Shown: in pieces, positions 3,382-64,000 of the stretch
Layout: every line of letters begins with the position of its first letter
Numbering within the stretch: position 1 is the stretch's first letter
NCBI RefSeq assembly: GCF_963678975.1
Contig: NC_089273.1
Location: 27,471,073-27,535,072 of the forward strand
From: Dysidea avara
Lineage: Eukaryota; Porifera; Demospongiae; Dictyoceratida; Dysideidae
Reading direction: 5' to 3'
Length of the DNA: 64,000 nt
Notes under the pieces: generated by a model
Databases searched by the model: none
The model's input: only the letters and a program-made list of their open reading frames with translations
What the model was told of the DNA's origin: nothing
Translations under genes and position numbers: made by a program

Positions 3382-6195
3382 TCAAGTACTCAACCAATAT
3401 TTACTTTTTGTGTGGTACAAAGTAAAACAGTTTCTACTTTCATCTGTGCACAAATGAACATTACATTTACAACATTTTATTCTGCTTTCATGACGCATCT
3501 CCTTCCTTGTTAAGTTTCTTTTACTTCGTATTGTAGAGCAAACAATGCATTCCATTTTGTTCTCTGTGTGTACAGGCCAGTGCCCCAGCTCAACATTGAG
3601 TCTCTCAAGCTGCTGATAATCATCGGATCTCGGACGTCCTCCAGCCTTCTGTCGAGCCTCAGTAGTACCAATGAGCTGACTAGCAACTTTCAAATGGAAG
3701 GAAAGAAAGTCGAGTTTTTTACGACCCCTCTGGTTGCAGCTGTCAGGAAATTTGTTGCTATACAAGATGTAAGCATTCAGCAATGAACATTCCAACAGAT
3801 AAGCAAAACACCGTTTCCACCATTTTCGTGATCTGCGGCCCACATTGTAGTAACCTATCATCTGATCACCACGATCCACACCCTTCATGTATTGTTGGTA
3901 GTCATGGAGAAGTGGTGGACATCTGACAGCCTCCTGAGTTCCATCCTTATTTCTTCTCATTATTGTTGGTAAGTCTCCATTCATTGTTGCATTGTGCATT
4001 GTACTGATAAAATGTACAAATTTGCGGTCAAACCAGACTACAGCTAACAGAGGTCCGTTAGAACGATAATCATGGTAGCCTCTTTGTTTTTCCCTCTTTG
4101 ATTTCACCAGATCTTTAGGAAACCCTTTCCTGTTAGTATGGACAGTACCACAAGTGTTTATCCCTTTCTTGTAAAGGGCCTGAGCTAGCTGTGGACTGGT
4201 ATAGTAATTGTCCGTAAAAAGATGGAGTCCATCCTGTTCTAGTCCTTCCACCAAGTCCAATACTACCCTTGAACAAAGGCCAGTAGTAACATCAGACTCC
4301 ACCCCCTCCCAGTATATATTTGTATCCGATACACATATCCATTGGTTGCATCGCTTAGAACGAAAACCTTTATGCCCCATTTTGTTGGTTTTGCCTTCAT
4401 GTATTGCTTGAAAGAAAGTCTGCCCTTGAAAGGGATCATGGCTTCATCTATAGTGACGTGTTGATGTACTGTGTATTGAGCTTCAAACTGTGTTTTCAGT
4501 AGAGTTGCAAAACGTCTAATTTTGTAAAGTTTGTCATTACCAGGGTCTTGTGTATTGTCAGCAAGATGTAAAAATCGAAAGATTTGTTCAAATTTAGTTT
4601 TGCCTATTATACGTGAAATTCCAGGCGTCTTGATGTGCTCATTTGCCACCTGCCAGTACATTTCAAGTCTTGGCAACTTGATGATGCCCATCAATATCAG
4701 CACTCCTATGAATAGTTTCATCTCATCTGAAGTAATGTTGTTCCATGCTCTTGGGGTAGGTTTTGTAGATTGATTGTTATTTGCGTATTTGTTTGTTTCT
4801 GTCACAAGTAGATCCCAAACTTCATCTGTAAAAAATAACATAAAAAATTGTAAAGGTGTTGTGTCATCAGAAAAGCTTGTTGTTGGGCCAGGTATTTTTG
4901 TGTAACTGTAGCAGTAAGAAGTTGGTTCTTGTGTAACCCATGCTGTCTCATCCACAGGTTCTAAAGTTGGCAAATCTGGAATTGTCCTGTTAGATTGTCG
5001 TCTACGTGTACGTCTCAGAGTTGTACTATCATGTTCTGGGTCTGTACTTCGTCCACGTCCTCTTCCTCGTCCACGTCCTCTACCTCGTCCACGTCCTCTA
5101 CCTCGTCCACGTCCTCTACCTCGTCCACGTCCACTACCTCGTCCACGTCCTCTATCAGAATCACTTCCTCTACCACGACCTCTACCAGGAACACTTCCTT
5201 TGCCACGTCCGCGACCTCGTCCACGTCCTCTTCCACGTGCTGTTGTCAAGGTAGCCAAAGCAGTGTCATTATGATCAGGATCAGGTGATGCACTGGAAGA
5301 ACTTGTGTCTCCACTTGATGAAGGATCTGTATCAGTGTCAGTGCTATGTGATGTATCAGAGCTGCTCTCATCATCACTGGAAGAATTTGTTTCTGAGATA
5401 TCATCACATTCGCAGTGAGGTACCACATCATGCGTACGTGGTCGTTTACGACACCTTGAGTGAGTAGATGATTCACTGTTTGATAATTCCTCCCTCACCA
5501 TGGAAGTGTTTTCAGAATGAGGATGAGTTGTTGTACGTCGTGGCCGCTTTGCTAATGTTCTGTGTTCCTGCAAAGATAACAATTTGTATTTATTATGTGT
5601 GCTAGTATTTTACACATGTTACTTCATAATTATGATATCTATTTGTATTGATTTTCACTTATACAATAATTGGTTTCAGTTGAACTGTCATGTGTGATAT
5701 CAATTTATTTGCATTATTAGTCAATTTACAACTATGTAATACATGGTTTCTGTTGACTTTGCTGCAAGTTACATCAGTATTTGTATTTATAGTAGTCAGC
5801 TGGCTTACCACATTTGGTGTACAGTCACGTTCTTCCTCGCACATTCCCTCTTCATGAACTTCTGTGGGAACAACATTCTCAAGAAGTCGATCTTCAACAT
5901 TCTCGTCTTCATTATTCAAAGTGTTCGCTTCCAATGAGTGTTGATTCGAAGAGATGTCTACCCCCTCAGTCGTAGTTTCACCGAACAAAGTGGTGTCTTG
6001 TACTTCATCCTCTTCACTTCTCTCATCTCTTCGTGGTGCTATATCATTGTGTGTAAGGATAGTCTCCCCTACCAAAGCGTGGATATTTCCATCGTCTACA
6101 ACATCATCGTCGCTTTCCTCCTCACCAGAAAAGCCGAAATCTTCATAAAAAATTGCTTCAACAATATCACCCCATAATACTCGCGATAACGCCAT
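3382..6195 (-). pseudogene. piggyBac transposase (PGBD-like), two exons, one frameshift
   Basis: Exon 1 (6195-5809) starts at an ATG with G at -3 and +4, and encodes an acidic region rich in EEESDDD. A 241-base intron (5808-5568) has donor GTAAGC and acceptor CTTTGCAG, and joins two phase-0 ends in frame. Exon 2 opens with Ser/Asp-rich sequence, then about 60 residues dominated by Arg-Gly repeats, then the RNase H-like transposase core. The catalytic Asp triad is visible: TIDEAM (codon near 4448), FTDNYY (near 4212) and KGVDRGDQM (near 3876). A Cys/His-rich C-terminal zinc-binding region (CIVC, CCKC, HLC) follows. One frame change near 4305-4315, in a C/T-rich run, separates the first Asp from the other two. 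An ATG at 6372 in the exon 1 frame lies almost at the element tip and is less likely to be the start. Confidence 0.88.
5040..5240 (-). repeat. 18-bp coding minisatellite (Arg-Gly repeat)
   Basis: Units close to CCTCGTCCACGTCCTCTA repeat in tandem on plus. Read on minus inside the piggyBac transposase they encode alternating Arg and Gly. The 18-base unit keeps the frame, so length changes are tolerated by the protein. RG-rich tracts usually bind nucleic acids; that role here is inference. Confidence 0.85.
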
Positions 6196-6400: not shown

Positions 6401-9319
6401 ATAGGTTGTACTGATAGAGTGTACATACTAGAGATGCAACAATATCCTCCACTTAGTGTCATTTGATAGTGATGCAATAGAGACTATGTATTATTGCATT
6501 TAAATACTATACTATTATATTGCAACTCTAGCACGTATTTATAACAGGAATGTTTGTTAACTGTTTAGACATACTGGAGCCACACCCACTCATCTGGATT
6601 CTACAAATGGAGTCATACCAACTTGTTGTCATCATACTTACTCGTTACTCCCATTGTGGTTGGATGAATATACATGCCGTCATGTGAGACTTGCTACCAT
6701 GGCGGGCCACTGGAAAACATTTGCATAGCAGTTATATTACAGTAATTATTGTACAATTCTTATATACATTATTGTTGTGAAAAGTGCTTGGTATTCATGT
6801 GTCTCCTCTATATGCTGTAATTACATGTGTAATTTTGTGTGGGGTGCTATAAAATGCAATAATGCATGGTGACAATTGTATTAGGCGATTTTGCACACTT
6901 CCTTTTAAGCTAGCTACATGTGCTAATTACTCACAACTTGTGTCAACAACTGGTAACCACAGCTGTACTCTTGTGTCATTCTTTAAGCTGCGCCCTTAGA
7001 GGACAAATTATGTGGGGGCGACTAATTTCAAAACAAAGGATGGTATGCAGCACCATAGATTATATCTATGGACTATAATCTATGGCAGCACAATTCTTGG
7101 TGCCTATATGTACTGATTAACTACATAGAGCGCCAGTTCATCAATACCCAGTGACCGCAGTTGTGCTCTGCGTCATTCTTTAAATTCCGAGTAAATTCTT
7201 AGAGAGCAAATGACGTGGGGGCGACTAAATTCAAATTTCAAACTAGCCATTCACGAAAACAAATGTTTCAATCTGAACGAAACTTTTAGAACAGTTTAAA
7301 GACACATTGCCCTACTTGCCAAGCGAGTATTGCGGAAAACAACAATCTGGGATTTGTATTTGGCCTCTAGGTCGACTGAGGACGACCGAAACTTCGTTTG
7401 GTGCTGAAATCACGACTGTAGGGTAATCATGTATGGTGAAATCGATTATGTGAATCTTGAGGTGATTGAGTGAATACTGAAGCGATAACAGGGCGACCAA
7501 TGTTCGGAATGCACTAAGGAACGCAAGGCATACACCTGTGGTTGCGTCTAACCGCATGCGATAAAAAATAAAATATAAATATAAATGAAACTTCCCCTTT
7601 GATGTCGGCAATCTCGATCACGAAACAATCGGCATGGATTTGCTTCACTGCTTGTGTGGTAGTTACTAGTGACACGATTAGTTCAACTCCAGAGTTTCAG
7701 AGGGATAGCGTAAGTTACGGGTGGATTACAGGAAGGCCGAATTTGACAAGGTTCGTTCTTGTAAAATCCTCACGTAGTGGTCGCGTCATTTATTGTCTGT
7801 GGCGCTTTTCTGCTTTACTGGCCGCGCGACTCACTACAGTGAGTCTTGATTTATCTAGTCTGACCTGAAATGGAACACACATTCATTACATACCACCTAA
7901 GAATCCTAGGATTCCTTAAGTGTAACATTTCACATGCTTCACTTCAAACAAAATAAGCTAAATTTGTTGTCTAATTTCAAGTAATTGCCAGTCCAGCTGG
8001 TCCATGAAATTACAGTGGGATCACATGTATTTGTTACAGTGCGGGCTGCTCTGTGTTGGATTTACTCTAGAATTGAGATTTCAAGGTAGACTGCCAATGT
8101 ACCAACAGTGTTGTAGTATATTGAAGCGGAGGATAAATGAATACAGTAATGTTATATAGATTATTTATGTATGCAAACATTTTCATAATGAAATTGATAT
8201 CCCATTTTGATTTGTACCTCCACTTTGCAACATATTCAAGAACAACATGTTACCACTCTTTTAATCTCCAACCACTGTCATTAATTAACTAAGAACTCAC
8301 CAATCTTTGTTTGTTCCGTCTACAATTTTGCTTTGGAACAATAATTATCTAAAGGCTCTGATTCGTAAAGTATTTAAATCTGTAATTCACCTTATTGTAG
8401 TTGTACTAATTTTATTGATTTGTCTGTATGTTTTCTTCATTTTCCTTTGAAGTTGTACAGTATAGGTAAACAAAGATAAATCTAACCCATCTTATTCTAG
8501 GATTTCTAGTGACTAAGAATAATTTACTAGTAATTACTTGTATACAGGCTCAAATTGAGAAACTATAAATAAATTGAATTAATATTATACAATCAGTTTG
8601 CTTTTGGATATTTAATGTCTCCAACTGCAACAAAAATTTGATGAATCCATGCATCTCATCACTGGTCGTCTGAACATTCTGAAAGTGATACCTTACTCAA
8701 TCAACCATATATTCTGTTTATTAGACTGAATAAAGTCATGATCACCTAGCCTTTTCCTGTCAGCAATAACTTTCTAGTTAATTTCTCTGTGGATATTATG
8801 CTCTGAAACTGAAGGTCTTCTAAACTATCTTATCAAGATCAGCAGATACAACTGACATCCAATCGGCTACTGTATTGTAGTAACAAAACTTGCCTTGGTC
8901 ATGTAATAAATGAATTGAAGAGACCTGCTTGATATATCAGGTAGTAGAACAATCACTGCATGAGACAGCTTTTAATATTTTATTGTCACCCTATTCCATT
9001 TTCCTGGAGGCTCCACTGATAAAAATGCAATTTCAGCAATGATAGTGGCTAGCCAAGCTGCAAGTTTTGATTCAGAAAGCATTCCATTCTGTAAAATAGA
9101 CTCCATCCTGGATTCAACTTCCTACTCAGGCTGAGATATGTGGCATTTAGTCCACTACTCTGTTAATGAATCATTAATGTTCACGCAATATAGCCTCCTT
9201 GAGGTATCTGAATGTTTGCTCCCAACCCACTGCACAAAATTCCTTTAGATTCTGCTTAGACTGAATTAGTTCAGCTTGTCACCATACTTGTTACCTTTGT
9301 ACTAGTGTAGCTACATACT
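6401..9319. other. Unassigned stretch, no gene recognised
   Basis: AT-rich sequence with no supported gene. Open frames at 7312-7611 (minus) and 7599-7868 (plus) have no recognisable domain. A direct repeat of about 80 bases is noted separately at 6955-7235. Nothing else structured was seen between 7870 and 9319. Confidence 0.4.
6955..7235 (+). repeat. Pair of ~80-bp direct repeats
   Basis: The block at about 6955-7035 and the block at about 7148-7235 share words such as GTCATTCTTTAA and TGGGGGCGACTAA in the same order. The copies differ by substitutions and short indels. Between them is a small inverted word around 7060-7085 (ATAGATTATA / TATAATCTAT). Origin unknown. Confidence 0.65.
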
Positions 9320-14487: not shown

Positions 14488-15530
14488 TAGCAAAGCCCAC
14501 CAGGGGCAACACGCTAATGTGCATTACAAATTACAAATTGTTTAGCTTATCTATAATGTTCTTAAAAGTGTCAAGGTTAATTGTATCAATGTTGTCAATT
14601 TTCAAGTTAATCCAATCAATAATTGTTCTTGGTAGAAAAGAATACTTTGAGCAGGGTAGATCTCGTAAACAAAATAAGGCTGAATACCTCCAAATTCTAT
14701 CAGAGCTAGATCGGTTAAATGTTACCAACTTTTATGAGACTCTTGAGATCAGCGTTTTAGGTCACTTCCAGCAATTTTCAGTCACTAACACTTACAATGT
14801 ACTACATTTTATTGATAAGGACATCAATATCACAAGGTAACTGGTTCGACGGATGCTGGATGATGCCTCGAAGGTTTGTATGACTGCATCCCAGAGGATT
14901 TTTATGGCAAGGGATTGCCGAGAGTGGTTGTGATAATGTACTTGTAATTTAATATTTTTGTTTTGTTTTGTAATTGCTGTTTTTGTTTGTAATTGTAATT
15001 ACTTTTCTCCCTTGCCATGCCCACGTTGGTATCACTTGATCACCAGCCTTGTTATCGCATTTGACCGAGGGTTACTGAATTTGTAAATGTATATACATGT
15101 CTCATTTATTATGATGGTATCAACACACATATAAATCAATTCTGGATTGCAGCTGTGCAAATTTGAGGGGATTATTGGTACGAGTATATGATACAGGGGT
15201 TGACTGGGGTAAACAACGATTTGGTAGCACCAGTAAGTTTCTTACAATCTTGAATAATAATATAAGTCTAGCATTCCTTCTCCTACTTTTAAACTTGGCC
15301 ATTGAAGGTAATTAAGCATATCTGTAATACTGTGTTGTTGACTGGATCTGTGCCATGGTTTATTAAGAGCAAATCTTGCGTTGGATCATTTCTAATTTGC
15401 TAACTGTTGTTCGGTGATAAGGATCCCAGATAGCTGAGCAGTATTCAATAGAAGGTAACAATAATTGTTTGTATAATTAGTGTATACTTGAGTTTGTCAA
15501 GATTCCTCCGTCAATTTAGTAATTATCTAT
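14456..15530 (-). mobile_element. LINE 3' part (CR1/Jockey-type RT C-terminus), interrupted
   Basis: Read on minus, the sequence runs YCSAIWDPYHRTTVSKLEMI (near 15450-15390), then SRRRNARLILLFKIV, then TRTNNPLKFAQLQSRIDLY, and after an interruption KYSFLPRTIIDW. This is the standard tail of CR1/L2/Jockey-like RT proteins. The 3' end is an (ATT)n tract at 14456-14485, preceded by AGCAAAGCCCACCAGGGGCA, which recurs at ~43066. The coding sequence is broken by stops and by a plus-strand insertion at about 14647-15115. Confidence 0.85.
14647..15115 (+). mobile_element. 3' end of an R2-like retroelement nested in a LINE
   Basis: On plus, the frame RSRKQNKAEYLQILSELDRL matches the end of the protein at 55031-56940 (RNRKQSKTEYLQLLAEFDRL). 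It continues through ISVLGHFQ and, after a frame change, ends with TASQRIFMARDCREWL, equivalent to SASQRIFLARNCTEW there. A 3' untranslated part with CCTTGCCATGCCCAC is also shared. The flanking LINE protein resumes exactly on the other side, so this fragment was inserted into the LINE after it had landed. Confidence 0.85.
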
Positions 15531-40303: not shown

Positions 40304-40639
40304 CTTTGTACAACTGTTTATAGCTAGCATTCAGACAGATACACAGCTTGTCCGTGTATGACATGCTCGCAAAATATTTTCATGGTTCGGAACTGTAGTG
40401 AATGGTCAACAACTTAACTGTGTTCGCTTTTTTAAATTCGGCTGTACACGTACACGTACACACACACACACCTTTCTGTCGCCACTTATACTATGATGAT
40501 CTGACTGTGGTTGCAAGAGACCTAGGTCTCATAACACAGCAAAAATAGTGCTCCAATACAAGAGAGAAAGAAGAGAGAATAAACGTCTTAATGATTAAGA
40601 CAAAATATACATTACAAGCAAACAGGGGCCTAGACACAG
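40304..40639. other. Unassigned spacer
   Basis: Short CA/ACGT-type simple sequence occurs near 40443-40473. No gene was recognised. Confidence 0.4.
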
Positions 40640-43027
40640 GGGTACCATGTGCTGATGGATCAGTACAGGAGCCCTGGCAAGACTTACATTAATTTAAATT
40701 AAATTAAATTATAATACACAAAAAAATCTATATATTTATCTATATGTAATACTTAAAGTTTACCTAAGTTGGTCTAAAAGATCCCAGTCTGGGGAGGCTC
40801 TAGAATTAAAAATTCTGTAAGAACAGGACACAGCAATGCGAGCTGCCTGCTCAATCAAGGATCTTACAGTTTTCTTTGTCACTTCACAAGCAGTAGCCAT
40901 TTGAGCAATTGTTTCGGACAAAAGTGGCCTAAACAACCAATTTCAATGGGAACAAGATTGACGGTTAACCCAAAAAGCTGAAGGTCATATTGCAAGGAGC
41001 TATATCGATCTTCCTTTCTAGCTCTAGCAGCAAGAAGATGCTGCAGGGTAATAGTTTCTACTGTCAATTCGAACAAACAAATGGAATCATTTGAAACCAA
41101 TACCAAGTCAGGCCTGCTGCGGGTGGAGGAAAGATTGGTTGGGATGGTACTAGGGGGCTGGAACTAGCTAGATAACCTGGAAGGTCAGCGTAAAGTTTGA
41201 ATGTTTCAGGTAAATGCTGTTGGAGCCTATGAACAAGGACCTGTAAAACTGAATCATGTCTCCAGGTATACCTGCCTTGGTCTAGAGCAGCAGGACAGCC
41301 AGTCAAAATATGGTTTATTGTGGGTTGAGGAGCTTGACAAAGAGCACATCTAGGATCAGTAATGATGTTCCATCTGGCCAGGTTCATAGGGGTTGGTAGA
41401 GTGTCACAACCAGCATGTAGAAGGAAGGACAGCTGTTTTTTTAGGGAGGCCATACATCAATCTCTTCCACAGAGGACAAGCTTGCTCCAGAGTTACAATA
41501 TCTAAAAATTTATTTTGAACAGTTAATGGTTCCAGTTTTGATTTCCAATATTCAATGTGAGCAGTACTTAAGTTGTGGCGAGCATGGTTCTTGAAAGTTG
41601 CAGAGTGAATGTTGGCAACTGAAGCCTTAGTAGCAGATAAACAGTCAAGGACAGCGGAAGAGATATCGGATCTGTTAGCTAAAACAGAATGTCACAGCTC
41701 TATAATCAGTGGATCAACTGACTGTTCGATAGCCAGAATGTATGAAAGCTTGGCTGATTGCTTCAGGTGTGGTAAAAAGGGGAGATCCATCATGTCCAGG
41801 TGGAAAACAGTTCCAGGAGTGCAATTTCTTGGGAGGTTTAACCAATTTTTCACAAATTTCAATATTGATGACTGTGCTGAAATAATAGAAGACACAGTAA
41901 GCCTCTCAACAGCTAAATGAAAATGTAGAACAGAAGACACAAAGTTTTTTTAAGATCCATATCTTATATTCTCCCCAAACAGAACACTAATCAATGAATT
42001 GTAAAAATTGTAAAATTTGTTGCTTCATGGTAGCAGAAGCTACCGATCGAGCAATAGTTGGAGAAACACCAATAGTGCGACCCAGAAATTTAGTACAATC
42101 CACATTACGGATATTAATGGTATTCCCAGCAACCATTGAAAATACAGTAGAGGAAACCATATGATGACCATTAAAGTAGAGGGAAATACACTTTGGAGGT
42201 TGAAATTCAAAACATATGTCTGTTGCCTTTTGGACAAGTGACGATAAAGCCTGCTGATGAGACTTGACATCTTTGGAGATGACAGTCAAGTCATCAGCAA
42301 AACCCTTTGCTCTATGTATTGATGAATAACAAATCTTAGGTAGAGCAGCAGCTGCACTAGTAGAGGTTGATGGTTGGGTATTAGGTTTATTAGAACGATA
42401 AACTCTGCGATATCTGCCTGCATAGCACCATTCCACAGTGTGAAGATCCACAGACTGTTCATTATCACCATTATCATAAACTAGATCACAGGAGCCATCA
42501 CAATGATAAGAGGTCACAATTGCTCTGTACCAACCAGATGGTGAATCATCTGAGGAATCAGACCATAACACATAGATTGCAGTCTCAACAGGAGGCAGTC
42601 CAACAGAGTTGGCAGCCTGTAGTTGAGCAGAATAGCCACAATACTCTGATGTGGAGAGATAAGCTAATAACGGGTTAATGGCTAAGTTGAATAACAAAGG
42701 TGATAAAGTATTACCCTGGAAAACTCCTCGTTGAATAGAAAATACTGAAGTGTTCCAGTTCTTGGTAGACACTTATGCTGACAATTTTGAATAACAGCTA
42801 GTAATGTACGAAATAACAGGAGAAGGCATCTTGATGTAATGTAAGATATCAATGAGGTATTGATGACATACTGACCCAAAGGCATTCCTCAGGTCAAGAA
42901 ATGACATAACAATAGGATTCTTATAGTACCTCTGGCATTCTCCAATAGTGATTATATGAACTCTGTCTTTAATCAGCATTAAGACAACTAATTCAAAAAA
43001 GTCCCTGCATTGAGAGAAAATGGACCT
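40640..43027 (-). mobile_element. R2-like retroelement with Tudor-like segment, degenerate copy
   Basis: The element runs on minus from an RT region at its upper end to a 3' untranslated part near 40640-40700. It is a diverged relative of 55031-57117 and reaches further 5'. At its upper edge (about 43027) it meets the 3' tail of another LINE. Decay is spread along its length. Confidence 0.82.
40879..42979 (-). pseudogene. RT with internal Tudor/agenet-like domain and R2-like nuclease end
   Basis: Motifs in order on minus: FLDLRNAFGSVCHQYL (first catalytic Asp, near 42900), then after a frame change RGVFQGNTLSPLLFNLAINP (near 42710). Next comes a ~50-residue segment at 42577-42428 (IYVLWSDSSDD, SGWYRAIV, CDLVYDNGD, LHTVEW), then GFADDLTVIS (near 42300) and KFLGRTIGV. 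After more broken frames the C-terminus has CALC...H...C, RYTWRHDSVL and LYADLPGY. After a shift near 41100 it has ICLFELTV and ARKEDRYSSL. The W, GWY, YD and VEW residues of the internal segment resemble Tudor/agenet folds. Frames are broken at least near 42772, 41990-41460 and 41100. Confidence 0.8.
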
Positions 43028-46983: not shown

Positions 46984-49900
46984 CTAATTATCATCACTGT
47001 CACTGTCATCATTTTCGATGTTAAAGTCTTCATCATTTGTACATTCACCATCTGTACCGCACAAGTAGAGTTCCGTGCAAGGTAAGTTGTTGCATCGGCA
47101 TGAACATCTTAGCGTGGAGCAGTTAGTTTTACATTGACATCTTACCATCTCAACAATAGCTTGTGGTGCAGGAAGAACCAATGTTGTGACTGGCAGCAAC
47201 TGGCTGTCTGTGTCCTTATAGTAGCCAAATTGTAGTGGCTCAAAAGGTTGTTGATGCATGACAGTGGCTTGGTACCATACTCGACTTTGTAAACGTACAC
47301 GCTTTATATGCTCTTCTAGTGCACCAAGTGTAGGTGGCAACTTGTTGCTTTCTGCAAGTTGTTTACAGAACATGTGCCATCTTAAATCAGGTATACTAGT
47401 AATTCGAACACCTTTTGGACAGTACTTTAAGCAAACAAACTTCTCCAGTTCATCTTTAACTTCTTGTGCTAGATCACCTTCAACCGGTAGTTTCAGGAGT
47501 GCTCTTGGTAAGTCCATATCAGCTTTCATGTATTGCTGAAACCATTTCATTTTGCTTATTCCTGAGAATTTCCCTACATTGTCAGTTCCAGTGAATGCAT
47601 GGAATATAGGTAAAGCTCTTGCCTTTTCCTCACCCAAAGCTCTCCACATTGGTTGAATATCTATGATACCTGATATCATTGAAATTGATGACTTTTTACA
47701 GAGCCTTTCATAGTGTCCTATGGTCAAAACCAAAACACCTGTATCTGGAGTGAAAAACATTAGTTCTGCATTTGGACACCGCTGCAATGCTTCGGCTGCC
47801 AGACAGATCATGATTGTGTCAGCCTCTTCATGATTATTTTCTTCAAAGGTTAGGTCTCTGTTGCTTCTGGTTTGACCTGATGCTGATGTGATGAATAGCT
47901 GAGGTGAGTCCATTTTGCAATTAAGCGTTTCTTGTGCAAGATATACTGATAGGTCTGCTTTTGTTTTTTCATGTGATAAAAACCGTGTCAGCGGAATATG
48001 TTTGATGTTTATGTCATCTTCAATCTTGTACTGTACAGCAGCTTTGCCTTGTCGGCGTCTCTCTCTAGTTTTCTCTTTCAGTGAGTCAGGTTTGTATGTA
48101 TCAAAGACCAGTATAACTTCACTGAATCCTGCTGTCATATTTGTGAGCTTGCCAATGAAACCCTGGGCTAGATCTTTCACTGTGCTAAATGTCCCCTTTT
48201 TATTTTTCGTCATCTTCTAGACAAGAACCATTCCATCAACAATGGCAATCTTTGAATTTGCTAGAGATGTTAATGCAAGACCACCCTGCTCATTGGGAGC
48301 CAACATTTCATTGTGGTCATTTCGATCAACTGTGCTTGCTAATTTCTCAAGGTCATGTATCAGTTTTGACTTGTCAGTGCACACCAGCATTGATCCATCT
48401 GGTGCAAAAAGTGCTCTTGGAGTCAATGTAAATTCATAGTTACCAACTGCATTCTTTTGATCAATGTCCCTGTTGGACCTAGTTAAAACCATCAGACGAC
48501 CATACAAGTTTTTGGTCTCTTTCATATCAACTGTCTGATCACGGATCTTTAGAGTTAGCTTCTTGCTACCAGACATGTACATTTTGTTGTTCTGCTTTTT
48601 GACTGGTGCCCAAAGACTGGTGTCTCCATTGATACGTTCAGCAACATACTCTTCATAAAGCTTCTGGCCAATTTCATCAGTATTTAAGATCTGTGGAACA
48701 TATTCTTGTGGTACATATGCATTTGTGATGAAATTATATAACTGGTTTCCTTCAGCAGCAAATGGATTACCATGGCTTAGTATTGCAGCTTTGATTTTGT
48801 CAACAGCTTGACGTTCTTGTCGGATAACAGAAAGTTGTACATCATGATGCCCTTCTGGCTTGTTCACCTGGAGCCCAAACTGCCCTTTAAACTCAGTTGA
48901 TAAACGTGACATTTCTGGAGAAGCCAAGAAAAAACGTTGCCTAGCATTTGAATTATTTGAAATGCCTACTAAGCCAGTATGGACTTTCATCATCCTGTTA
49001 AGATGTTCACAGGCATGGTCAGAACCCAATGAAACAAATGGTATCTCACTCTTGGTGACAGATAAATTTCCATCTTCAAGTTCTTTCCATGTTGCTGGAT
49101 GTTTTGTCTTCAATTCATGCATGTCTGCAATATATCTTGGCCAGAGCCGTTTGTATTTTATTCGATCAAAAGCAAAGAAAATTTTGCTCAGTGCTTCCCC
49201 AGCTTCCAGATGTAGAGTGATATCAGCATTTCTGGATGCTTCAACAAAAAACAAGATAGTTTCAACCCTGTGGAGGTAATTCATCAATGACTTGAACATA
49301 GCATTAGATGACTTCTGTTCTTCCCACGTTTTAAGCTGTTGAATGACCTCCTCTTTCTTTAGGACTTCAAGCAGATTGGTGTTGGCAATCCTGATGCACT
49401 GCGGTCCATCACTTCCACCAGAGGCCATGTTGATACATGCTTCCTGTATTTCTTTTGTTGAACTCAAGCAATCCTCCATTAGGTGTGGCATCTCTGTGAA
49501 GAACTGTTCCAAGACAAGTTCATACAAAGCCATATATGTGTGGATATGTGCGCTAAGTGCTCTCTTGTAATGGCTACACTTGAGAATCTGCCTCACTGTA
49601 GAGGACCCATAAACATCAGCTTCAATCCAAGCATCATCAATTCCTGAATTCTCAATTGAGGTTCCTAGAGCCCTCAGAGAAGCCATCACGGTATGCAGCT
49701 CTCCAAGTCTCAGAACAATTTCATCTTTCAAGTTGGGTCTTGCATCTAGCAGCTGTACTGCCTTCTCATATAGTGCCATGTCAATAGTTATGACAGCTGG
49801 ATGGTCTTGACCAACTACTAAAGTCTTTAATTGAGATGCTCGCAACATTACTGTCATTATTGTAGGCCACTCATGTGCAACCTCTGGAAGTAGAGGCAAA

Positions 49901-51845
49901 GCACCCACCTGAGTAACTGACTGACCAGGTGACACTAGTGATTTGTACCCTGCCCAGCCTGGGATGTGTACTTGTAATTCACTTTCTGCTGATCGTGATG
50001 AAAGAGCAGATGCAATCATCCACCCAAGAGTGTTTAGTTGATATGATTCAGCAACACCTCCAGAATTCACTTCAAACTCATGATCTCTCTTGTATGGACC
50101 AGGTTTTGGTTTGCCACATGGCTTAATGGGTACATGATAAGGAAGAACTGATAAGTTTTTGGCTTTATGAATTTCCAGACTTGGTGCTAAATGTTCTCCT
50201 GATGCACTAGCCTTTTGATACACTGCTGTGATTGTACCATGTGTCGTGCCTTTGCCATCCACAGTGTCTTCAGCAAAGTCAGTATTGTCAATAGCAAAGA
50301 AAACAAATGTACCCTTCTTGAGGAATGGTGGTACATAGAGCCCACCAAATTTTTTAGTGTTTTCCACAACAGCATTGGCAATTGCTGTTTCTAGGAGCAA
50401 AGTACGGTTGTATGATATGCAGTAGTTCTGTGCATGAAGGAGATTCATCAGTGTCTTGTTCCTAGTGTCATGATGGATGGTGAGGGCCAACCCCAGGACC
50501 TGTGGGTTTTCTCGTGAGCGTGGTATCCGGAATGCATCAGAGGGCCTCTTGTGCTTGTGTTGCACTTGTCTCCTGGTTTTGAAGGCGTACATTATATTCT
50601 GACAAATGGTCAAAGCAGATCTATCAACTGTCCTATTTTTCACCTCTGTTTGTAGCTCCTCCTCAGATCCCACCAAAATCCACCGTATCAGGTTGTAGAG
50701 TTCAGTATGAATATCATCCCTTGTGCTGGATACTATCATCGCATTATTTTTCTCCTCCTCAGCAGATTTGGAAATGCTCTCACGTACCATTTTCGCTGTC
50801 TTATATATCATCTTTGTCTTTTCTATTTCATTGGTGGAGTTTTGCATCAAGGAAGTGCAGACCATGTCTTCTTCGCATGCTTCAGGACAGTAAAGAAGAG
50901 ATGGCTTTCTTCTATCCTTCTGTCTCGTTGACTTTACAGTTGGTAATTCTGAAAGAATTTTGTCCTTCAGCCATTGCCTTGTCAGAGTTGGAATGTGTTT
51001 TTGAGCCTCATCCTTTCCACCAAGCATAGATATGTAGGTTGTCTCAATAACATCCTTGGGAAGATAAACTTTGCTTTGGGTATGAACATCTACTAGATTG
51101 ATCAATTCAATCCAGCATGACATCTGCATTGGGAGGGGAATCTGTGGAGACTTTACTTGATTGCAGGCATCATCCCTTAGTACATGGAATACATGTTGTG
51201 TCCAGTATACCTTGTAGTATCGAACATCAATTGCATGAGCATCACCAGGTGATATTGCATTATTTAAACGTGTCATCAATACTGGATTCTGTGAGATTTT
51301 AACAGCTTGTTGAAGTTCCTTCCCAGCATTTTCAGTGCATACTGTGAAGAGATCCTGGCCATCACCCTTTTGACAAAAAAAGCAGTAATATTACCTCAAC
51401 GGTTCTGTTGCAGATCTGGTGAAAGGTGCTGAGCTACTAGGTGCTGTATCTGTTTCAGTTTCATCCATTTTAAATCGTGTTCTTTTATGTCCACGTTTTT
51501 TGCAGTATATGTTCTGGTACAAATAGCATGTTCTAAACAATCACTTGCTCGTTGGATTGATATTGCATTTGTGGCATCAGAATAACAGCTACGATGCCAC
51601 ACAGGCTTGTTTTCAATGAATGTTTTACTGCTCATTTCTTTCAAGTATCCATTGATATCAACATATACTCCATCCTGCAAACTGGCCCTTTCTTCAACTG
51701 CATTGGGTAATTTCTGATATGATTCAGTTTTGGGATTTTTAACCAATGTTCCTTTTTTAGGAGTAGATTCCTGACAAATAATGCACATTTTCCAGTCAAG
51801 TTCTTTGGATGAACTTATAGAGCTTGTTCCCAGTTCACTACTCAT
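46984..51845 (-). pseudogene. Academ-type transposase with C-terminal XPG/FEN1-like nuclease
   Basis: The N-terminal part (from 51845) has a CIIC...H...C pattern. A frame change near 51475-51490 and a TAA at 51391-51393 precede YYCFFCQKGDGQD, where the main frame starts. That frame is open for over 1,050 codons to a TAG at 48217-48219, then continues in the same frame for 409 codons. The TAG sits between IAIVDGMVLV and KMTKNKKG, where Gln (CAG) would fit. The end is an XPG/FEN1-like fold: IVDGM and LVFDTYKPDSLKEKTRERRR (N region), HEEADTIMICLAAEAL and FFTPDTGVLVL (I region), then FTGTDNVGKFSGISK (helix-turn-helix region). The second Asp expected in TPDTD is Gly here. A Cys-rich tail (RCQC, CRC, LPC and more) precedes an acidic end. 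The middle ~900 residues have no fold recognised by eye. Confidence 0.8.
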
Positions 51846-54521: not shown

Positions 54522-55030
54522 TAGAGCAGCTCAGGTATTTCCGATCACCATGTACTTTCGGACGCAATATTTCCTAAAGAAGCAACAAGACTCGATCAAT
54601 TATTACACTATTATGAAGACCTATGACTATAACCTCCATATATAAAATATAAAAAGATTCGGTTATATCGTGTGGCTGAAGGGACCTCGGAAATCCACTG
54701 TCCAAAAACGTCGATGCTCGGACAAGGACATGTACGCTCGGACCCCACCCTCTACACCCTTCCCATGCAACTTCAAAAGCTATTGTGTGGTAGTGATTGA
54801 TAGAACTAACCTTGAGCTACCCCATGATATAAGCAGATTAGATTTTTATTAGCTGGTATTGTAGATAGCCGATTTTTTTCCCAGAGGTGGTAACTTGATC
54901 AAACGTCGGACGCAAAAATTCATTTTATTTTCGACTTTTCATTTATTTGTGATAATTTTGGTATTTTATGACTTTCAGTAAAGTACTACCTGAAAAGGTT
55001 TTAAATATAGCAATTTAAACTCAGGTATAG

Positions 55031-56940
55031 GGCATGGTTATCATATCAAGATTCCGATTGAGGACTCTGAAGCTCTTCCTCCTGTTGATTCCTATGTGTA
55101 TGTAAAGTGGACAGAAGCTGGAGAGGAACCACCTGGTTGGTACAAGGCGCGAGTTGGTCAGTACTTCCTAGACAGATCGTGTAAAATTGTTTATGATGAC
55201 AGTGATGATCAAGTTGTTTCTGAAGTTGTTGCTTTACATACAATAGAGTGGAAACCATGTGCTAAAAGAGCAAGGAACTTTGTCTCCCTTGATGGGAAAC
55301 CTGCTTTTACCAAAGCCAACGGGAAACCATCAGTTAAATTTGCTGACTCAATGGAACACTCACTCAAAGGATATGCTGACGATGTCACTTTGATCTCCTG
55401 TGATATCGATGTTCATAAATCAGTTTTACAAACAATTGACCTGAAGGCAGCAGATTTGGACTTGACTTTTAAACCATCTAAATGTATTTCCTTTCTATTT
55501 GATGGCTCCAAAGTTGCGCCAATGGGCTTGCCATTATCCAAAGGTACAACTGGACCCATCAGAGAAGGCCAAACCAAATTTTTAGGAAAGTTAATTGATG
55601 TCTCTTTGAGTGCTACCAAGAAAGCTGCAGGCAAGCGTATGATAAGCCATCTTACTGACCTACTTTCTGCATTTGACTCACTCCCCATCCGTGGTGAGTA
55701 CAAACTGTGGATTTACCATACCTATATTCTCTCACTGACATGGTTTCATTTGTGTGTTGATGCTGTCTCCAGGGGGACCATCTCCAAGTTAGAATCTATT
55801 GCCACGCGGTTTCTGAAGAAATGGCTGAATTTTCCCCGGAGTGCTACACGAGTTATTCTGTACTACCCAGGTGTTTGTTGTCCTAGTATTTCTCATGTCT
55901 CCAGGGAGGCAAAACTAAGTTTGCTAGCCTGTTTCAGTGCCTCCTCTGACTTGCGGCTCCAGGAACTTAGCCTCCATTTGCGTCTTGGGAATGTTGCTCT
56001 ACAAATCCAAGACAATGACTATTCCATCCTGTCGATTGCTCAAAAACAATTATCTGCCTTCCCATCAGCTCGGTCGTTATATATTAAGGCTAAGCACCAG
56101 TTGTCAGATTCCATCAAAGCTCAATGCAAAGACCATTTACAGTCACTAACTGTTCAGTCAAAGTTTGAGAGTTCCGCTGAACTAGAGAGCTCCTGTAAAA
56201 CTTGGAACAGGCTACTGAAGGGATTCCACCCCGGTCAATTGTCATTCCTCCTTCGTGCAGCATCTGACACTCTACCCACCGCTGTGAATTTACAGAGATG
56301 GTCCATCCTATGTGAAGCGAAGTGTTTGCTTTGCGATTCACGGCGCCCAACAACTGCTCATGTTTTAAGTAGCTGCCCTGCAGCATTAAATCAACAGCGG
56401 TATACCTACCATCATGATCAGGTTCTTCGTGTTTTGGCCACTAAACTTTCTGAAGCATTTGCTGACATCCCATTTGTTAAAGTGTTTGCTGATATACCTA
56501 ATTTCCATGCTGATAATTCTCCACAGTCTACAATTCCGATGAGTCTCCTTATTACATCCTACCGTCCAGACATTGTTATATATAATTCCCAGAGTTCTTC
56601 CATCACTCTGTTGGAACTAACATGCCCTCTGGACTCCATCCATCACATCCAGTCTGCTCGCAATAGGAAGCAGAGCAAAACTGAGTATCTGCAGCTGTTG
56701 GCTGAATTTGATCGCCTAAATATTGCTAACTATTATGACACCATTGAAATCACGGTACTTGGTCATTTTCAAGTGTCTTCCATCAAGAATTTATCTAGTT
56801 TGTTAAACTTTGTTCAAGCTGATATAAGGATTTCGAAGCACATTATTAAGGAATGGTTAGATGCTGCTGCCTCTGCCAGTATCTCTGCCTCTCAGAGAAT
56901 TTTTCTAGCACGAAACTGTACAGAGTGGTGCACAAATTAG
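55031..56940 (+). CDS. Partial RT polyprotein: Tudor-like segment, YADD, CCHC, R2-like nuclease
   Basis: An uninterrupted frame of over 600 codons with no native start. The first in-frame GTG is at 55096, but the frame is open from the insertion edge, so this is a truncated body. Order: Tudor/agenet-like segment at ~55096-55251 (VKWTEAGEEPPGWYKARV, IVYDD, LHTIEW), then GYADDVTLIS at ~55369-55398 and TKFLGKLIDV. Next come a thumb-like helical region, a CLLC...H...C knuckle (~56323-56376) with YTYHHDQVL, and YRPDIVIYN with ITLLELTCP, fitting an R2-type PD-(D/E)XK nuclease. It ends ASQRIFLARNCTEWCTN. The lack of stops suggests a young insertion, but without the RT fingers and first catalytic Asp it cannot be active. 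Confidence 0.85.
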
Positions 56941-57117: not shown

Positions 57118-57641
57118 TTTCGTCAGTTCTAGGTGGAAGAAACCAAGCTACATATAGCTGTAGTATAGTACGTCTACACAAATTAGCTAAATAAGGCCAC
57201 TCCTCTTACTCATTTTACACTTTTGAAATTATAAAATCAATTTCAGGTAGTGGAGGTCAGCAATAAGCTGCAACAGTGTACAAAACCTCGCTAACGCACA
57301 TATGACTGTTCTATTAGAGTAGGTTTATTGGTTGAGTGAATTTCACTTGTTAACTTTCGTGTTGTAAGCTCCTGTATTTTTCTAGAATCTGTTCTGGAAC
57401 AATTCATGTATGTTGGGTCATGCAAACACGAAAACCTGTACAATTTAAACCAGCGAAATTTGCTCAATACATAAACTACTCTAATAGAACAGTCATATAT
57501 GCGGTAGCGAAGCTTCACACACTATTGCAGTTTACTGCTGACCTCCACTACCTGAAATTGACCGAAACAATATCAAAAATGTCAAATCAGTAGAGAAGTG
57601 GCCTTATTTAGCTAATTTGTATAGACGTACTATACTACAGC

Positions 57642-58273
57642 TACACTGTTAATATGAGGTGTTACAGGTGCACCGATCGTAAAGGTGTTCATGTACACCC
57701 ATGGTATTTACAACACCCTAAGGGAGTACTGTAGCACTAGGGGTGTTATTGAACACCACAAATGTCACTTTATTCCCCATAATAGCTAAGCCACTGTAAG
57801 GGTGTTTGCCTACACCTTGGTATATTGAAACCCACAATCGGATGCTTATATTAAAAATTAGGTTATAAATACATTTTGTTAACTTCTATAAGAGTGACTT
57901 GGAAACAACCATGTGATGAGTATAAAAGTGTTGCAAAAATATAATTGTGTACTGCTAATGTGGTTTGTTGTTAATCATTGCGTATAAATTGAAATCAACA
58001 TGAAGGTTACCGGAATGTTATAGCAAGCCTACGTTTCTTTTCAACAAAATGCCACTATGGAGAGCACTAGAACACCTTTAAAGTGTACTGTGATGCCTTT
58101 ATAGCTATTCCTAGAACACCCTTAGGGAGTATTGTAACGCCTTTGTATCACCTTTTAGTTGCTCCTAGAGCACCCCTGGGGAGTACTACAACTCCCTTCA
58201 AAGGAGTTTAATTTACACAGTAGTTAGAACTCCTCTAAAGGTGATTGGATTACACCCTATTTTTAACAGTGTA
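57642..58273. mobile_element. ~630-bp TA-flanked MITE (TACACTGTTAA ends)
   Basis: The ends TACACTGTTAA and TTAACAGTGTA are mirrored, with AGGTGT and ACACCCT further in. The opposite arm of the foldback gives the empty site with a single TA. The interior is built of repeated GGTGTT / AACACC words. TA duplication and CACTG ends point to the Tc1-mariner group; it is non-coding. Confidence 0.88.
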
Positions 58274-63024: not shown

Positions 63025-63560
63025 CATGGAGAAGAAATAATAGAGACAGCATCATTATCATCCTTGAAAACTTGCAATGGCCTACACTACAAGAACATCG
63101 CAAATCAGCTAGACTAGTTTTACTATATAAAGTACTACATGATTTATTGATTATACCAAACTGTTACCTCCCATTTAAATCTACTGTATTATGGACCCAA
63201 CACTCACACAACTTTAAACTAGTACCTTACTAGCCAAGAATTGATGTATATAAATATCCCTTCCTTCCAAGAACTGTACCAAAATGGAATAGATTAGATG
63301 CTGAGATTATTGAGACTGACTGTGTTGAAGAATTTAAGCAAAAGTAGCCCCTTCTATGTAAATAGTTAAGTAACTTATCGTAATTGTATATATTTTTATA
63401 GTTTAGTATTGTAATTGTACATATGTATATAATTAAGTAACTTGTCATAATTGTATATACTTACATAATTAAGTAACTAATTGAAATTGTACACATGTAA
63501 TTTCACATCAGCATTATACCCCTAGAGGGTCCTGCTGATTAACAATAAATAATAATAATA
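63025..63560 (+). mobile_element. LINE 3' end (CR1/L2-like)
   Basis: On plus the frame reads LENLQWPTLQEHRKSARLVL, then LYKVLHDLLIIPNC, HSHNFKLVPY, a TAG, then YKYPFLPRTVPKWNRLD and VEEFKQK with a stop. The tail ends in (TAA)n at 63548-63563. One in-frame stop and 5' truncation make it inactive. Confidence 0.85.
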
Positions 63561-64000
63561 ATATCTATCTCACAATCTGGAATACATAAGTTTCTTATAA
63601 CACTTGATACAAATAAAGCTAGTGGTCCAAACTGTATATCCCCTTACATCTTGAAGCATTGCGCAGATGAAATAACACCAATATTACATGTAATATTCAA
63701 TCATTCTCTGTCAACTAACTCATTGCCATCTGATTGGTTAAAAGCCAATGTATGTCCAGTATTCAAGAAAGGTAATCACAGTAGTGTTAGTAATTATCAC
63801 CCCATATCTTTGACCTCCATTTGTGCAAAGGTTATGGAACACATTATATATCATTCCATCATGAACCATCTAAACAAAAACAACATATTAATTGAAAATC
63901 AACATGGCTTCAGATCTAATCATTCATGCATAACTCAACTAAATACTCTTACAGAAGACATATACTTTGCTCTAGACCATCAGAAACAGATAGATATCAT
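63561..64000 (+). CDS. LINE reverse transcriptase, N-terminal part, runs off the window
   Basis: An open frame with no native start begins directly after the (TAA)n tail of the preceding LINE and is unbroken to the window edge. It reads FLITLDTNKASGPNCISPYI, then DEITPILHVIFNHSL, WLKANVCPVFKKGN, NYHPISLTSICAKVMEHII, and ILIENQHGFRSNHSCITQLN. These are the first RT blocks (fingers and start of palm) of CR1/L2/Jockey-type LINEs. The upstream endonuclease is absent here, so the copy is probably 5'-truncated. The catalytic motifs would lie beyond 64000. Confidence 0.85.
   Translation, partial: MSISQSGIHKFLITLDTNKASGPNCISPYILKHCADEITPILHVIFNHSLSTNSLPSDWLKANVCPVFKKGNHSSVSNYHPISLTSICAKVMEHIIYHSIMNHLNKNNILIENQHGFRSNHSCITQLNTLTEDIYFALDHQKQIDI

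Follow-up and report, generated by a model that had tools for sequence, protein, structure and literature searches.

The R2 elements (R2Tg and R2Bm) are among the nearest described counterparts of the family reported here; both have reverse transcriptase (RT) motifs, then the thumb, the zinc knuckle and an RPD..E endonuclease, in this order. In the parts of the R2Bm study covered here, that element also has N-terminal ZnF and Myb domains and inserts into 28S rDNA (PMC10499050), and neither feature was seen in this family. The HERO clade likewise consists of RLE LINEs, many of which are described, in the portion of the source covered, as not site-specific (PMC4640811). For the RTs themselves, the covered part of PMC5678591 lists insertions 0, 2a, 3a and 6a in LINEs and reports insertion 4a in Prp8, group II intron RTs and others. 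If 4a corresponds, as we assume, to the stretch that separates motif 4 from motif 5, the module described below is a 4a insertion in a LINE; in that same part of the source, the extra sequence at 4a in Prp8 and group II intron RTs is not described as a Tudor domain (PMC5678591). That an insertion of the RT can have a share in target choice has a precedent in R2Bm, where insertion 6a touches the target DNA and nicking is inhibited when 6a is deleted (covered parts of PMC10499050), although this insertion lies at another place in the enzyme and is not a Tudor domain.

LINEs with a PHD or esterase in ORF1 have also captured extra domains, going by the covered part of PMC5563155; in those elements the extra domain lies in ORF1, whereas in this family it lies inside the RT catalytic domain. 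In the titles, abstracts and passages covered by the literature search, no LINE RT was described as containing a Tudor or Agenet domain, which is weak evidence of absence. It is unusual for a captured domain to be nested within the RT as a constant feature of a family. Chromodomain LTR elements carry a captured chromodomain in their integrase.

Anatomy of the elements in the window and in the genome

The window (the whole stretch of DNA analyzed, 64,000 nucleotides) holds a minus-strand LINE copy, copy 1, at 40561..42958, which is 5'-truncated and has several frame breaks. Its end points are approximate, position 42958 being the start of protein similarity and the opposite limit a TC-rich 3' tail near 40561-40580. 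With the protein of L002, an open-frame relative, as the tblastn query, copy 1 was recovered in the pieces 42958-41942, 41949-41437, 41441-41154, 41157-40915, and 40924-40763, and its 3' hairpin and tail were compared with those of L002, L004, and L007. The longest open piece of copy 1 (41987..42772, minus strand) encodes 261 aa comprising motif 4 (B), the Tudor-like insert, motif 5 (C), and the start of the thumb, and it matches Pfam RVT_1 (E 8.4e-10) in two separate stretches. The original prediction did not state a strand for this ORF; the plus strand across 41987-42772 is stop-rich, and the ORF is that of the minus strand. The motif order that it reported, QGNTLSP and then FADD with about 130 residues between, was confirmed, in that motif 4/B (QGNTLSP) lies at 42698..42718 and the catalytic motif 5/C (FADD) at 42290..42301, both on the minus strand, with 132 residues from SP to FADD. 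Between them is the 69-aa Tudor-like module (42395..42601, minus strand), in which we found all of the landmarks that had been named for the insert (W, GWYRA, YDNGD, and VEW).

The 5' truncation of copy 2 (55012..56937, plus strand) falls within the RT, a short way before the module, and from there the copy is open to its stop. Similarity begins at 55012-55036, and QG..SP is missing as a result of the truncation. That this element, at 55.1 kb, carries the same module ahead of its YADD despite strong divergence also held, as the copy 1 and copy 2 pieces share 36% identity. The copy 2 module is 71 aa in length (55072..55284) and is followed on the same plus strand by the catalytic motif 5/C (YADD, 55372..55383), by a zinc knuckle (CX2CX8HX4C, 56323..56376) within a Pfam zf-RVT match (E 1.5e-7) and, as read from the sequence, by the restriction-like endonuclease motif RPD...LELT (56563..56619). 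A third copy is a 3' fragment (14607..14930, plus strand) encoding the C-terminal 108 aa, which are 85% identical to those of L022.

On its sequence, the family belongs to the RLE-type LINE retrotransposons, R2 superclass in the broad sense, and the element is a single-ORF LINE of ~3.4 kb. Profile searches with the family matched R2 (9nl3, E 2.2e-46; R2Tg 9dou, E 4.7e-46) and LINE-1 ORF2p (E 1.1e-24), and in individual members Pfam RVT_1 was matched with E-values of 1.3e-23 (L002), 7.3e-24 (L022), and 2.2e-26 (L024). The alignment with R2 covers the RT, the zinc knuckle, and the restriction-like endonuclease, extending from the segment before motif 1 nearly to the C-terminus in two parts that are split at the insert. 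At the split, profile positions 381 and 487 correspond to R2 residues 644 and 651; that is, ~105 profile positions before FADD/YADD stand where the R2 hairpin has 6 residues. Pfam zf-RVT scored above its cut-off in copy 2, L002, and L022, and just below it in L024. The knuckle spacing given for RLE LINEs in the covered part of PMC5678591 is CX2-3CX7-8HX4C, a range that includes the CX2CX8HX4C of this family. An RPD..ELT endonuclease motif follows the knuckle, as identified by eye. Upstream of the RT, the three open frames inspected for a zinc-finger or Myb domain (L002, L022, and L024) contain no accepted Pfam domain, and no CCHH pattern was seen there by eye. The DNA shared by the L022 group is 3.4 kb long, and the longest 5' ends begin near ATCACGTGA or ACGTGA, with the start codon presumably within ~20 bases of them.

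The insert as a probable Tudor-type domain

The module had been proposed as a family trait on the basis of the two elements in the window, and the genome bears this out. A search of the same 550-Mb genome with the 261-aa piece gave at least 150 matches, as did a search with the module itself, made to find a host donor gene; a weaker donor would rank below the matches listed. Forty family loci were fetched. In 29 of them (the window copy included), a single open frame, 250 aa or longer, spans both motifs; the other 11 gave no spacing by the pattern used. The distance from QG..SP to xADD is 132 residues in 11 loci and 133 in 18, and so is nearly constant in all 29 measurable loci, although many of these loci are near-identical copies and represent far fewer than 29 independent lineages. 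In an alignment of 12 rows, the other members have 33-41%, 68%, or 97% identity to the copy 1 piece. Nine loci (L002, L011, L021, L022, L023, L024, L025, L026, and L029) have stop-to-stop frames of 1053-1115 aa, lengths that include some codons upstream of the presumed start.

By comparison, 21 other RTs of the same genome, picked by hand and therefore illustrating the usual state rather than an unbiased census, have 20-34 residues between the two motifs. Eight of these are LINE RTs of another type with 20-21 residues (six measured by pattern, two by eye); they came from the best 150 of 11004 RVT_1 candidates and were chosen for a match length of ~735 bases, which leaves no room for a long insert. 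The remainder came from a search with an R2 segment, in which 14 of the best 150 of 3813 candidates, all outside known places of the family, were taken and 13 could be measured: the spacing is 29-34 residues in ten RTs that we label R2/R4-like (one by eye) and 20-21 in the remaining three. A tree of 20 RTs groups the seven that carry the module in a single clade with a support of 100; with local RTs and the R2 segment included, the supports at the placement of its neighbors are 46 and 55. The simplest reading is that the module was gained once, before the sublineages split. No relatives were found in viral contigs, and the genome-contig search returned one 21-residue match over QG..SP in a contig titled Mollicutes (L041).

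The insert had been called Tudor/agenet-like, and of this description the conserved domain between motifs 4 (B) and 5 (C) and its profile match to Tudor stand, whereas the Pfam Agenet match stays below cut-off. Agenet is nevertheless the Pfam family that the modules match most often, always under the cut-off, and the sole family matched by more than one of the 12 aligned modules (5/12, best E 0.0014; TUDOR, 1/12). Six further modules gave Agenet in three and TUDOR in one, leaving 9 or 10 of the 18 modules scanned with neither match, the uncertainty arising from the TUDOR member among the 12, which is perhaps also an Agenet member. The copy 1 module matched Agenet with E 0.0051 as a 113-aa segment and E 0.0029 as an 85-aa segment, both below cut-off, and the copy 2 module alone had no Pfam match. 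The highest Agenet (PF05641) score was 19.1 bits, short of the gathering cut-off of 27 bits. Unrelated Pfam families were also matched with E-values of 0.027-0.3, four of them by one each of the 12 modules (best E 0.039) and others by single modules among the six (best E 0.027), and no Tudor-type family was matched by any of 10 shuffled modules.

Stronger evidence came from comparison of profiles. One 3584-aa frame of the genome contains 18 TUDOR matches, and eight of these, trimmed to a core of 62 columns, served as the host Tudor set. (This open frame, with its 18 TUDOR family matches, lies at G000:C13:17457779-17468206.) Aligned with these eight domains, the module profile scored 33.0 (probability 89, E 2.1e-6), a score reached by none of 200 column-shuffled controls (mean 10.1, maximum 21.3). 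When a window of 71 residues was slid along the LINE protein, the six windows over the module scored 30.4-36.9 and the 76 windows away from it averaged 8.9 with a maximum of 13.3; another four, which overlap the module at its edges only and are not among the twelve best, were set aside. The SMN Tudor domain, used as a single-sequence positive control, scored 38.3 against the same set. Single modules matched the host Tudor domains with E-values of 5e-6 to 4e-3, and the 113-aa segments of copies 1 and 2 did so in hhalign with E 3.5e-5 and E 0.0014, respectively. Against SMN alone the family profile gave a modest score of 15.2, which 4 of 200 shuffles reached. Profile searches of the PDB with the family found no Tudor chain, and in a PDB search with a single module the only Tudor chain was L3MBTL3 (E 7-8), which ranked behind two unrelated chains. 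A relationship of the module to the Tudor superfamily is well supported by these sequence comparisons, and we consider a Tudor-type domain to be very probably a fixed part of this RT.

Ten positions are invariant in the 12 aligned modules (P3, Y10, W13, G23, W24, Y25, A27, C38, Y42, and W58). In 20 further, partly decayed stretches judged by eye, W13 is kept in 19, Y25 in 18, and Y42 in all 20. In the hhalign alignment to SMN, W13, Y25, and Y42 fall on three SMN aromatics, which we take to be W102, Y109, and Y127 of its cage. For the remaining cage residue of SMN, presumably Y130, the modules have no conserved aromatic counterpart. With conserved aromatics at three of the four SMN positions, a methyl cage in the module is plausible, albeit incomplete by the standard of SMN. 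The module also shares a WY(R/K)A motif with the host Tudor domains, as it does the W, Y, Y positions with SMN. It differs from SMN in the longer distance from the first W to the Y of WYRA, and from Tudor and Agenet domains generally in being nested inside an RT and in having no conserved fourth cage aromatic.

Purifying selection acts on the module. Among the 12 representatives, its median dN/dS (Nei-Gojobori) is 0.27, with a range of 0.10-0.76, in the 18 of 66 pairs that were usable; pairs with dS of 0.02-1.5 were kept, and most pairs were saturated and dropped. The corresponding medians are 0.13 for the RT after the insert (8 of 66 pairs) and 0.24 for the RT before it (4 of 45 pairs), and the endonuclease part had zero usable pairs. 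Constraint on the module is perhaps a little weaker than that on the RT downstream of it.

Insertion sites and possible roles of the module

The 3' ends of the elements have a possible short hairpin, then GTT, and then a simple-repeat tail. The terminal hairpin is GTCTTAA/TTAAGAC in the group of window copy 1 (about 40561-40600) and TCATCA/TGATGG in the L021 and L024 groups; in the L022 type, the L035 type, and the copy 2 stretch that was folded, the minimum-energy fold differs from the terminal hairpin. The combination of a sublineage-specific 3' hairpin, GTT, and repeat tail is a candidate RNA signal for the RT.

A single site in 28S rRNA genes, such as that of R2, is not what the family uses, as its copies lie on contigs C1 to C15 with unlike 3' flanks. 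Of the 12 bases past the 3' junctions (n=13, counted on the downstream side, with L026 omitted because the end of its tail is uncertain), 10 positions carry at most 0.1 bit. The two exceptions are +3 (0.37 bit) and +9 (0.54 bit), which make a weak site preference conceivable. No target-site duplication was seen by eye in L024, L025, L026, L029, or L036. The full-length L024 copy lies inside a satellite with a 31-bp unit (stretches 706-1605 and 4934-5391 of that locus), and L029 is near such an array (6728-7498). Satellite targeting is not claimed, since the short flanks of 14 copies gave no hint of it by eye and, in L008, the sole further locus so scanned, the array finder gave no array of 31-bp period.

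We tentatively propose, with a confidence somewhat short of even, that the RT-embedded Tudor-type domain is a methyl-reader tether to a host protein. The Tudor-type domain was very probably gained by the ancestor of the family, within the hairpin that joins RT motif 4 (B) to motif 5 (C); it belongs to the working enzyme and is retained by selection. Movement would be by target-primed reverse transcription, as suggested by the anatomy of the element, and the module may dock the element RNP on a methylated host protein, either a chromatin protein or a histone tail. Docking would position both RT and endonuclease close to DNA with no need for a target sequence, and might in this way do the job of the N-terminal zinc-finger/Myb domains and RT loop 6a of R2. 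It is the module to which we would assign the docking because there is no recognized N-terminal DNA-binding domain in the three open frames scanned and little shared flank sequence. We infer that a barrel fold would be in place within the RT and exposed at its surface, and that it may bind a methylated ligand and have a role in targeting; RNP assembly, also named in the original prediction, would be another possible role. A further step, which we regard as rather doubtful, is that a LINE lineage swapped sequence-specific DNA recognition for a Tudor domain that reads histones or methylated proteins and is wired into the palm. The reading of a host mark would then be linked to the FADD hairpin itself and would gate or place target-primed reverse transcription.

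Although the conserved aromatic positions favor a reader, a run of basic residues that follows the presumed barrel (KRARKFV or RYRKVYR) is equally suited to nucleic-acid contact and keeps alive a credible, if somewhat unlikely, alternative. The Tudor-fold insert would then extend the palm, either as a structural element or to bind RNA or DNA, much as the 2a, 3a, 4a, and 6a insertions of related polymerases do, with the 3' RNA hairpin of the element or target DNA as its partner rather than a methylated protein. This would fit with the segment past the barrel being basic in both major lineages, with a terminal 3' hairpin of varying sequence being possible in several sublineages, with the touching of target DNA by R2 loop 6a and the inhibition of nicking on its deletion (covered parts of PMC10499050), and with the report of 4a insertions in Prp8 and group II intron RTs, absent though they are from the LINE list in the covered part of PMC5678591. 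However, a structural insert would not require a Tudor domain, and the retention of W13, Y25, and Y42 at methyl-cage positions would be unneeded for pure nucleic-acid binding. The Tudor domains of Tdrd and SMN proteins bind the dimethyl-arginine tails of Piwi-type or Sm proteins, and the module could bind such tails as a means of docking to germ granules or the piRNA pathway, either placing the RNP in the germline or disturbing silencing. The Tudor relatives matched are indeed extended, Tdrd-type domains, and there are large multi-Tudor frames in the same genome; however, the comparison set was one of convenience, made up of Tdrd-type rather than histone-binding Tudor domains, and nothing ties the element to germ granules, so we judge this version distinctly unlikely.

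Two readings would deny the module any such function. That the segment is an expanded RT loop without a domain, its Tudor likeness being due to chance, might be argued from the single Pfam matches, which are sub-threshold and missing from about half of the modules, and from the modest match to SMN alone. Yet no shuffle of 200 equaled the match to the host Tudor domains, the match is limited to the module and is near the score of the SMN control, and none of the 10 shuffled modules matched a Tudor-type family, making a loop very improbable. For a captured host exon carried as a neutral passenger without function we found no supporting point, and the nearly constant length in 29/29 measurable loci, dN/dS well under 1 in the usable pairs, and retention of the module in sublineages just 33-41% identical to copy 1 leave it the slightest of chances.

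A methyl-reader tether remains the reading that we tentatively prefer. What sets the family apart is that the extra domain sits within the polymerase's catalytic core, where every measurable copy has kept it, and several of these copies have long open frames; a LINE RT can accommodate an entire domain in its motif 4/5 hairpin. As the candidate is one small domain that can be expressed alone, mutated, and assayed, the target choice of LINEs that are not site-specific becomes directly testable.

Other features of the window

Just downstream of copy 2, at 57155-57643, are nested inverted repeats with arms of 52 nt (96% complementarity) and 89 nt (88%), which resemble a small non-autonomous DNA transposon. 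On the minus strand at 46984-51279 there are two adjacent long ORFs of 1020 and 409 aa without an accepted Pfam family. The longer has a DUF6589 match below cut-off (E 0.0022) and the shorter ends in a Cys-rich tail, and together they may be one mobile or repetitive gene. At 63549-63998 of the plus strand, the start of another LINE RT, with an RVT_1 match below cut-off (E 7.3e-6), runs off the end of the window.
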